From Tepidibacillus decaturensis (lineage in GTDB: Bacteria; Bacillota; Bacilli; Tepidibacillales; Tepidibacillaceae), in NCBI RefSeq assembly GCF_001561915.1, contig NZ_LSKU01000001.1, forward strand, positions 2,311,724-2,347,688: DNA of 35,965 nt. Reading direction: 5' to 3'. Positions 31,546 to 34,792 of this stretch are shown here, one piece after another. A program made the translations under genes and the position numbers. The notes beneath the pieces are model-generated. The model was not told the origin of the DNA and searched no databases. It saw only the letters and a program-made list of their open reading frames with translations. The stretch's first letter is position 1, and each line of letters opens with the position of its first letter.

Positions 31546-32757
31546 TTATTTTGCGTAAGCCATTGCTTCTTGTCTTAAGACTTCTGCCTTATCTGTACGC
31601 TCCCATGGTAGATCAAGATCATGACGACCAAAGTGGCCATATGCAGCTGTTTGACGGTAAATTGGACGGCGAAGATCAAGTTGTTTAATAATCCCTGCAG
31701 GGCGTAAATCAAAATGTTTACGAACTAATTCAACAAGGATGTTTTCATCTACTTTTCCAGTACCAAATGTATCAATACTAATGGATACAGGTTGAGCCAC
31801 ACCTATCGCGTAAGCAACTTGAACTTCACATTTATCCGCTAATCCTGCAGCAACAATGTTTTTCGCAACATAGCGGGCAGCATAAGCACCAGAACGGTCA
31901 ACCTTCGTTGGATCCTTACCAGAGAATGCGCCACCACCATGGCGAGCATAACCACCATAGGTATCAACAATGATTTTACGACCTGTTAATCCTGCATCAC
32001 CTTGAGGTCCTCCGATCACGAAACGGCCTGTTGGATTGATAAAATACTTTGTTTTATCATCTAATAATTCTGCTGGTACCACTGGTTTAATCACATATTT
32101 ATGAAGATCGGCTTTAATTTGTTCATTTGTTACTTCAGGATGATGTTGTGTTGAAATAACAATTGTATCAATACGAACTGGCTTGTCTCCTTCATATTCA
32201 ACAGTCACTTGCGTTTTGCCATCTGGACGTAAATAGTCTAAGATTCCCTCTTTTCTTGCTTCAGTAAGACGTCGAGCTAATTGGTGGGCTAGTGAGATAG
32301 GTAATGGCATCAATTCAGGTGTTTCGTTGACTGCAAACCCAAACATTAAACCCTGGTCTCCAGCACCAATCGCTTCAATTTCTTCATCAGACATTTGCCC
32401 TTCACGAGATTCTAACGCTTGGTTAACACCTACCGCAATGTCTGGAGATTGTTCATCAATTGAAGTTAAGACAGCACAGGTTTCTGCATCAAAGCCATAT
32501 TTTGCTCTTGTATAGCCAATACTTCGGATCGTTTCACGCACAATTTTTGGAATGTCAACATAACAGCTTGTTGTAATTTCTCCCGCAACCAAAACCAATC
32601 CAGTTGTTACAGAGGTTTCTGCCGCAACACGAGCATTGGGATCTTTTTCAAGAATCGCATCAAGGATTGAATCGGAAATTTGATCACAAATTTTATCTGG
32701 ATGGCCCTCAGTCACAGATTCAGAAGTGAATAAATGACGACCTTTTTGTAACGCCAT
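31546..32757 (-). CDS. metK: S-adenosylmethionine synthase
   Basis: 403 residues from ATG 32757 ([10 protein letters not shown]), preceded by AAGGGAGG; the longer in-frame reading has no site. Makes SAM from methionine and ATP, cytosolic tetramer. Landmarks: [17 protein letters not shown], the [15 protein letters not shown]-binding hexapeptide region, and [16 protein letters not shown]. Length and motifs are normal. Stands alone between two terminators with its own consensus promoter; a terminator hairpin lies in the leader. Confidence 0.98.
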
Positions 32758-32811
32758 ATGAAAACCTCCCTTAAAATTAGTATGTACATCTATTGTTATG
32801 ATACTCATGCA

Positions 32812-32843
32812 AAAAAGCCTTTCCTTTAGAGGAAAGGCTTTTT
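32812..32843 (-). terminator. terminator in the metK leader (possible attenuator)
   Basis: Perfect 14-bp arms AAAAAGCCTTTCCT/AGGAAAGGCTTTTT with a TTAG loop and a T run. It lies 55 bases before the metK start but downstream of a consensus promoter, so transcripts from that promoter must pass it. It also would end transcripts from the copper-amine-oxidase-domain gene. Confidence 0.9.
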
Positions 32844-32855
32844 ATACTCAAGCTT

Positions 32856-32898
32856 ACCTCTTATGTTTAAATAGATTTTGAATAAGAGATCCATTCAA
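32856..32898 (-). promoter_or_regulatory. candidate pseudoknot in the metK leader
   Basis: In transcript sense UUGAAU (32898-32893) pairs with AUUCAA (32883-32878). The nine-base loop between holds AUCUCUU (32890-32884), complementary over seven pairs to AAGAGGU (32862-32856), making an H-type pseudoknot. AGAGG can instead pair with CCUCU inside the leader terminator (32832-32828), so the two states exclude each other. No S-box (SAM-I) features are present. Confidence 0.45.
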
Positions 32899-32904
32899 CA
32901 ATCT

Positions 32905-32933
32905 ATATTATAAGAAGTAAGAAAGACTGTCAA
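32905..32933 (-). promoter_or_regulatory. consensus sigma-A promoter of metK
   Basis: TTGACA-N17-TAATAT on the minus strand. Start expected near 32898, giving a leader of about 140 bases. Confidence 0.88.
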
Positions 32934-32974: not shown

Positions 32975-34186
32975 TTACTGAACAGGTTGAGTCTCAGTTG
33001 TTGTTTCAGTTGACGGTTCAGTTGTTACTTGATCTTGGTTATCTACAAAAATTAATTGAGTATCAGAATCATATTCCACATCCGCCCCAAGACTTTCACT
33101 AATAAATCTTAAGGGTACAACTGTATTGCCATTAACAGTTGTGGCAGGTACTTGTAGCTGAATGATTTGGCCATTTACTTTTGCTTGTTTTTGATTTAAG
33201 ACAAAGGAAACACTTACATCACCTTGTTTTACTGTGATTGTTCTTGTTTCAGGATCATAACTAACCTCTGCACCCAATGCTTCTGCAATCGCCCTAAAAG
33301 GAACAAGCGTATTGCCATTTACTAATTGAGGTGGAACATCAAATTGTGGTTGCTTACCATTTACAAATGCTTTTAATTCTTTCTTATTTGTTTCTTTGTA
33401 AAGCTCAATTAATTTTTTTGCTTCGTCTTTAGAGCCTTTCGTAAATCCTAGAATTTGCTCTTGAGCCTCTAATGCATCTTGATCTTTGTCCATCAATTTA
33501 TACATTTCCATTAACTGTTTATATGCTTCTATCTTTGAAGTAGGTAATTCGATGTCTTCAAGACCTTCTACCTCTTCTAATCCTTCTAATTCACCTTTTA
33601 ATTCCTCTTCTAAGTTTTCCATAAGTTCTTGCGCATCTTTTTGTTCTTCCTCAGTTAATTCATTTTGATTTAATAAGGACTGTACATATTCATAGGTAGC
33701 TTGAATCGATTGTTCTGTGTTTTCTTGGTTAGATAGTTCCTCTAATAAAGGTAACCATTTCTCTTCCATATTTTGTTTTAACTCTTCCACTTTTCGCTGC
33801 ATTTGCTCTTTTGCTTTTTCATTTACTTTTTTAAGAGCCTTTTCCATTTCATGCTCAAGTTTCTTGATGTCTTTTTGAAGTTTTTTCATTTGTTTATCTT
33901 TACCATTTTCATTGTCACCATTCTCATCTTCATCTACGTCTTCTTCGATTGCTTCGTCATCCTCTTCTTCGTCTTCATTTTCTTCAAGATCTGCATCATC
34001 TGATACATCTTGTCCATCATTTAATGTAGAACTAGTTGAATCTGATGATGTATCTGTATTTATTGTTGTATCCTGTGTTGTATTGGTTGTGTTTGTTTCT
34101 TCAGCAGATACAATTCCTCCGATAAACGGAGTCAATACAAGCGTTAATGTCAAAAGAATAGGTAAGATGATTTTTTTCTCCATCAT
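32975..34186 (-). CDS. secreted protein with copper amine oxidase N-terminal-like (stalk) domain
   Basis: 403 residues. Signal peptide at the start (KKIILPILLTLTLVLTPFIG, ending VSAEE). Then a Thr/Ser/Asp-rich and very acidic linker (about 30-100), coiled-coil helices (about 100-280), and a C-terminal stalk domain with two repeats: VPFRAIAEALGAEVSYD and VPLRFISESLGADVEYD. In Bacilli this module occurs in extracellular and cell-wall proteins without oxidase activity. No LPXTG or membrane anchor. Ribosome site GGAGG; a second ATG follows the first at once. Confidence 0.9.
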   Translation of the reverse strand: MMEKKIILPILLTLTLVLTPFIGGIVSAEETNTTNTTQDTTINTDTSSDSTSSTLNDGQDVSDDADLEENEDEEEDDEAIEEDVDEDENGDNENGKDKQMKKLQKDIKKLEHEMEKALKKVNEKAKEQMQRKVEELKQNMEEKWLPLLEELSNQENTEQSIQATYEYVQSLLNQNELTEEEQKDAQELMENLEEELKGELEGLEEVEGLEDIELPTSKIEAYKQLMEMYKLMDKDQDALEAQEQILGFTKGSKDEAKKLIELYKETNKKELKAFVNGKQPQFDVPPQLVNGNTLVPFRAIAEALGAEVSYDPETRTITVKQGDVSVSFVLNQKQAKVNGQIIQLQVPATTVNGNTVVPLRFISESLGADVEYDSDTQLIFVDNQDQVTTEPSTETTTETQPVQ

Positions 34187-34513: not shown

Positions 34514-34735
34514 TTATAATCCTTTCATGAATTGTTCTGCACTTTCAACCAATCTTTTGGTCATGGCGCCACCTACTGCTCCACAATCCCTTGCAGAGAG
34601 CTGACCCCAGTAATCTTCACTTCCTTGGTAAACAGGAAGCCCCATCTCTCCAGCAATTTCATATTTCATATTATCTAATGCTTGATGGGCTTCTGGTACT
34701 AGTTGTTGTCTGCCCCATTGTCCTTTGGCCATCAT
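34514..34735 (-). CDS. alpha/beta-type small acid-soluble spore protein
   Basis: About 73 residues from ATG 34735 (a second ATG follows directly), with AAAGGAGG upstream. Landmarks: LVPEAHQALDNMKYEIAGEM and VGGAMTKRLVESAEQFMKG, the two conserved halves of DNA-binding SASPs that coat spore DNA. Odd: the GPR protease region reads EIAGEMGLP rather than EIA-EFG, and the middle has an unusual insert with a cysteine (YWGQLSARDCGAVGG). Evidence that the organism forms endospores. Confidence 0.92.
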   Translation of the reverse strand: MMAKGQWGRQQLVPEAHQALDNMKYEIAGEMGLPVYQGSEDYWGQLSARDCGAVGGAMTKRLVESAEQFMKGL

Positions 34736-34792
34736 GATCACCTCCTTTCAAAGGAAGTCGTCACCTTAGTTGGTTATTTGATGAGGTAATCA

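Follow-up and report, generated by a model that had tools for sequence, protein, structure and literature searches.

The metK leader in the analysed window (the whole 35,965-nt stretch of Tepidibacillus decaturensis DNA) is built from parts homologous to those of an S-box (SAM-I) riboswitch, and the aptamer core is absent. The leader is probably an S-box that has lost its SAM-binding core, no longer responds to SAM and reads through by default. We favor this interpretation because the plan of the leader, its P1 arms and its flanks match those of intact relatives, and because its pair of arms is unique to metK in the window genome. Such a fate is little documented for riboswitches: the sensor is lost and the expression platform kept, and this more than once at the gene for the ligand-producing enzyme. 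No earlier account of metK S-box loss or of riboswitch remnants was found in the open-access literature.

Parts of the metK leader and comparison with relatives

L-numbers denote metK leaders or loci. The window genome is G000 (leader L007) and its relative G002 has leader L008. The features of the window around the leader are as follows, with the basis of each call.

32975–34186, minus strand: open reading frame for a copper amine oxidase N-domain protein, upstream of metK, with its stop at 32975.
32905–32933, minus strand: sigma-A-type promoter, TTGACA (32933–32928), 17 nt, TAATAT (32910–32905); consensus scan, and an order of promoter, leader and terminator shared by relatives that have an S-box and relatives that lack one.
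32882–32893, minus strand: TGGATCTCTTAT, remnant of the S-box P1 5′ strand (AUCUCUUAU, 32890–32882) plus metK-type upstream context (consensus CGGAUACUCUUAUCC); alignment with metK S-boxes and left-flank shuffles.
32865–32881, minus strand: loop of 17 nt in place of the P2–P4 aptamer core; its G002 counterpart has 10 nt, and the two loops are unlike.
32856–32864, minus strand: AUAAGAGGU, remnant of the S-box P1 3′ strand, doubling as the antiterminator 5′ strand; alignment, stepwise folding and middle-flank shuffles.
32811–32843, minus strand: intrinsic terminator, 14 bp (helix 32843–32812) and U-tract; folding, and a terminator common to S-box relatives.
32798–32806, minus strand: GAGUAUCAU, decayed metK element 2 (consensus GAGUACCGU), the long-range 3′ partner of AUGG (32894–32891) and CUC (32888–32886); consensus present in L009, L010 and L015.
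31546–32757, minus strand: metK, start at 32757, an ordinary SAM synthetase (S-adenosylmethionine synthetase) by Pfam.

The promoter scores 10/12 in the consensus scan. An alternative −10 candidate, TATAAT, lies at 32912–32907 (minus strand), and the promoter position predicts a transcript start at about 32898. The metK RBS is GGGAGG at 32770–32765 (minus strand), and a genome search found a single metK copy. The 96-nt leader folds better than 200 of 200 shuffles (z = −3.5). The first-pass annotation, made from the letters alone, had described this promoter, the 14-bp terminator and two alternative pairings, all of which are present. Its pairing between a hairpin loop and AAGAGGU grows to 9 bp, AUCUCUUAU with AUAAGAGGU. 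Its pairing of AGAGG (32861–32857) with CCUCU (32832–32828, in the terminator 5′ arm and loop) is part of a longer antiterminator in stepwise folding. The leader is indeed an attenuator, with antiterminator and terminator mutually exclusive.

The annotation was also right that metK has no recognizable S-box: RF00162 (SAM-I / S-box) has no match in the window at the gathering score and none around the leader at E ≤ 10. An Rfam scan of the leader for any SAM family gave weak matches only. At E ≤ 10, no SAM family matched in or near the leader, including SAM-II, SAM-III (SMK), SAM-V, SAM-VI and SAM/SAH, which are small SAM-related leader RNAs, several with pseudoknots. PyrR-like Rfam matches in the leader were rejected as generic terminator sequence, also seen in L060.

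Among five sampled genomes of the family, three (L009, L010 and L015) have a full S-box at metK, and the window genome and G002 keep P1, antiterminator and terminator alone, in unchanged order. The three S-box leaders run promoter, UUGUACGGAUACUCUUAUCCCGAG, core, GAUAAGAGGUAAAG and CCUUUCCUCU terminator. The window runs UUGAAUGGAUCUCUUAUUC, 17 nt between the P1 arms, AUAAGAGGUAAG and CCUUUCCUCU terminator; G002 runs CUCUUAU, 10 nt, AUAAGAGGUAA and CCUUUCCUCU terminator. The commonest P1 arms among 62 metK S-boxes whose arms are clear are CGGAUACUCUUAUCC and GAUAAGAG. Both strands of the P1 helix CUCUUAU...AUAAGAG are found in the window leader (7–9 bp); the P2-P3-P4 core with its GGCAACC and GGUGC segments is not, as a mere 17 nt separate the strands. 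The window leader thus resembles the metK subgroup of RF00162 in its P1 strands, antiterminator, terminator, promoter spacing and controlled gene, with the full version at metK in the closest family members, but it lacks P2, P3, P4 and the SAM-binding core and is unmatched by the family model.

Alignments to L009, L010 and L015 were compared with those of shuffled sequences. For the window, 0–1 of 1000 shuffles were as good at the left flank, 6–11 at the middle flank and 1–5 at the terminator; L008 flanks behaved similarly, except the middle flank against L015 (161 of 1000), and kinship among the genomes inflates every one of these tests. A search of 141 Bacilli genomes for the pattern CTCTTAT-N4-30-ATAAGAGG (in RNA, CUCUUAU-N4-30-AUAAGAGG) gave 30 matches; G000 and G002 have one each, at metK. 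The P1 arms CUCUUAU and AUAAGAGG are identical in these two genomes. On a metK tree, one starred clade unites both with the three S-box genomes. The P1-retaining remnant form was seen in these two genomes only, a number compatible both with a shared loss and with two separate losses, and P1 retention may reflect recent inheritance rather than selection.

Elsewhere in the window genome, six S-boxes (93–101 bits) stand at other methionine loci. By eye, the genes behind them are metX, metY/metI, two metN-type ABC genes, an ABC substrate-binding gene and a homocysteine methyltransferase-like gene. Methionine synthesis and uptake would stay under SAM feedback through these six intact S-boxes.

Proposed mechanism and rival explanations

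When the window leader is folded stepwise, the AUAAGAGG strand pairs mainly in P1 until the 5′ arm of the terminator emerges. The antiterminator then dominates (P about 1 at 70–78 nt) and the terminator is more stable afterwards; as equilibrium folds, these take no account of polymerase speed, NusA or NusG. Folded without ligand, the L009 S-box goes through the same succession and has the same layout, with the P1 3′ strand competing with the terminator as antiterminator. The L008 antiterminator is weaker (P 0.64), and L007 has a competing 10-bp 5′ hairpin that may matter. Without an aptamer, SAM could not stabilize P1. The AUAAGAGG strand would by default pair with the emerging terminator 5′ arm, forming the antiterminator, and a fraction of polymerases would read through into metK at any SAM level. 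As SAM would have nothing to stabilize, the leader is expected to stay in a ligand-free-like, read-through-competent state. Folding therefore makes it most likely that the leader senses SAM no more and that its default is read-through. S-box aptamer mutants are derepressed, which fits default read-through.

The first-pass annotation had proposed instead that an unrecognized compact SAM- or methionine-binding RNA, an H-type pseudoknot, governs the terminator. A small hairpin, alternative pairings and a terminator do precede metK, and the pairing on which the pseudoknot was built exists. It is not of the H-type, because the true P1 (CUCUUAU:AUAAGAG) is formed with the 3′ arm of the hairpin itself; the two need the same bases and are mutually exclusive. 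The pairing arms are strands of the S-box P1, and Rfam SAM families give no match. Nor do relatives supply covariation: G002 alone shares the form, and the arms are invariant between the two genomes. Its loop is unrelated to that of the window in length (10 versus 17 nt) and sequence, leaving no conserved pocket. We consider such an RNA highly improbable, and a loss of SAM responsiveness more likely than a newly arisen one. A different objection is that the hairpin is merely the terminator of the upstream copper amine oxidase N-domain gene, with the promoter there by chance and metK transcribed from elsewhere. Chance alone does yield promoter-like sites (1.5 of this score expected in the region). 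The terminator likely also serves the upstream gene and ends its transcripts, since the interval from the upstream stop codon to the promoter shows no other terminator. However, the metK strand has no promoter-like site from the terminator to metK, and the order promoter, 15–60 nt, terminator recurs in unrelated lineages. In L013, L086 and L104 the RBS lies directly behind the U-tract. In G002 the upstream gene differs and an extra hairpin is found there, yet the leader is kept. Together these make it unlikely that the hairpin belongs to the upstream gene alone.

A putative long-range helix in metK S-box leaders

Many Bacillales leaders carry GGGAAUGAGUACCGUAUCA, which we call element 2, downstream of the S-box terminator and ahead of the metK RBS. 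A cmscan of L060 found no Rfam family over it. Allowing at most one mismatch, element 2 is found in 52 of 76 S-box leaders (expected after shuffling, 8.3 of all 141 leaders). Among the 65 non-S-box leaders, it is found in G002 and in four likely chance matches. A second set has it in 24 of its 38 S-box leaders and in none of its 32 others. The GAGUACCGU part of element 2 complements ACGG(A)UACUC at the leader 5′ end (ACGGAUACUC), which overlaps the P1 5′ strand. Besides the S-box relatives L009, L010 and L015, which have the consensus element, the helix was noted in L044, L060 and others.

In the first set, own pairs have a mean duplex energy of −19.2 kcal/mol; shuffling the elements gives −9.2 (sd 0.34), swapping partners between species gives −17.6 (sd 0.26), and 0 of 5000 swaps are as good as own pairs. 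The second set gives −19.2 for own pairs and −10.0 for shuffled elements, with 24 of 5000 swaps as good. The helix result thus recurs in a second set of genomes, although kinship inflates these alignment tests as well. In 35 of 54 leaders, no other stretch of the leader pairs as well with element 2 as the 5′ end does, and full-length folds of all six S-box leaders tested contain the helix, spanning about 200–270 nt. Several helix pairs show two-sided changes, such as C-G to U-A in G000 and G002. Fewer than 1% of by-column partner shuffles reach the observed cells paired and two-sided changes, and shifting the helix register lowers the cells paired from 89% to 28–52%. In a coordinate comparison with metK matches across 141 genomes, metK leaders account for 27 of the 28 copies of the 5′ motif and for 10 of the 11 copies of element 2. 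The sole copy of the metK-type 5′ motif away from metK (ACGGATWCTCTTATCC, G037:C1:900613-900628) lies at the start of another gene's S-box.

From this complementarity and covariation in two sets, intact Bacillales metK S-box leaders seem to form a long-range helix; we found no earlier description of it in the open-access literature. If confirmed, it would be a second regulatory layer on a very well-studied riboswitch. Of this helix the window retains only AUGG:UCAU and CUC:GAG, with a compensatory change at one pair, and no stable helix is predicted there. We call the helix decayed in L007 and L008 because long-range complementarity there is no better than in shuffles. Since some bases belong to both the helix and P1, and the 3′ half of the helix arises only after read-through, we speculate that it works as a latch or as a shield of the 5′ end. 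We give roughly even chances to the wider scenario. In it, Bacillales metK S-box leaders would hold a second switch, whose helix forms only in read-through transcripts and either blocks P1 from re-forming or shields the mRNA 5′ end; loss of the aptamer would have let the latch decay and left an aptamer-less attenuator.

Aptamer-less metK attenuators in other lineages

No S-box was detected in 65 of the 141 metK leaders of the first set. The aptamer-less leaders require at least four changes on the metK tree, a single-gene quick tree in which L051, L074, L078 and L081 are marked ‘none’ though by eye they have distant or variant S-boxes. The Paenibacillaceae form one starred clade, and all sampled members are aptamer-less. 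Brevibacillus retains an S-box together with a nearly identical terminator. In the lineages without the aptamer, SAM feedback seems to have been abandoned at metK and retained on methionine supply. Natural aptamer deletions of this kind make the physiological role of metK SAM feedback testable.

Paenibacillaceae-type leaders have a sigma-A promoter and then, 15–27 nt past the −10 box, AACCUUUUCC-loop-GGAAAAGGUU and a U-tract; L011, L013, L014 and L024 are similar leaders without an S-box. Like the window leader, these attenuators combine the absence of an S-box with a sigma-A promoter and a conserved terminator ahead of metK, and they belong to no named family. Unlike it, they lack the P1 5′ strand, and their transcripts are expected to begin near the antiterminator strand (GAGG/GAAGG), about 15–30 nt before the terminator. 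The Paenibacillaceae-type form, with an invariant CCUUUUCC arm and 5′-terminal GAGG/GAAGG, is seen in L055, L063, L064, L079, L082-L116, L131, L132, L137 and L222-L235.

These leaders raise the alternative that the aptamer-less attenuator is under selection and answers another input, such as an RNA-binding protein, a small RNA, start-site choice or the level of the initiating NTP. All 24 of 24 Paenibacillaceae-type leaders have CCUUUUCC unchanged as the terminator 5′ arm, while their loops vary freely and G-U pairs are allowed in the 3′ arm; such conservation suggests that the 5′ arm has another partner as well. GAGG/GAAGG at the leader 5′ end complements this arm beyond shuffles (−4.7 versus −2.7, sd 0.29; −5.9 versus −4.1 in a further test), and the conserved terminator was found at metK alone in four genomes with an exact match. 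Against this, own antiterminator pairs in aptamer-less leaders are no better than partner-swapped ones and so show no covariation (L102, whose start codon was misassigned, was left out of the pairing tests). The alternative fits the Paenibacillaceae best and reaches the window by extension only. We hold it to be possible but distinctly less probable than an S-box that lost its core and now reads through by default.

A further group of S-box-less metK leaders (L017, L030, L031, L187, L189, L196, L199 and L209) has CGAGG upstream and CCUCG in the terminator loop. CGAGG:CCUCG is possibly the same antiterminator as AGAGG:CCUCU with one base pair changed. A CATACTA motif recurs just ahead of the metK RBS in L007, L008, L011, L064, L099 and L110. 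The window has a gene for an alpha/beta-type small acid-soluble spore protein at 34514–34741, and in several lineages (L008, L087 and L101 by eye), Paenibacillaceae-type loci included, such a gene is close to metK or immediately upstream of it. In some lineages there is no separate terminator between the spore protein gene and the metK promoter. Elsewhere in the window, a group I intron (RF00028, 95 bits) at 1626–1979 on the minus strand overlaps the 3′ end of a flagellin-like gene (open reading frame 1961–2875).
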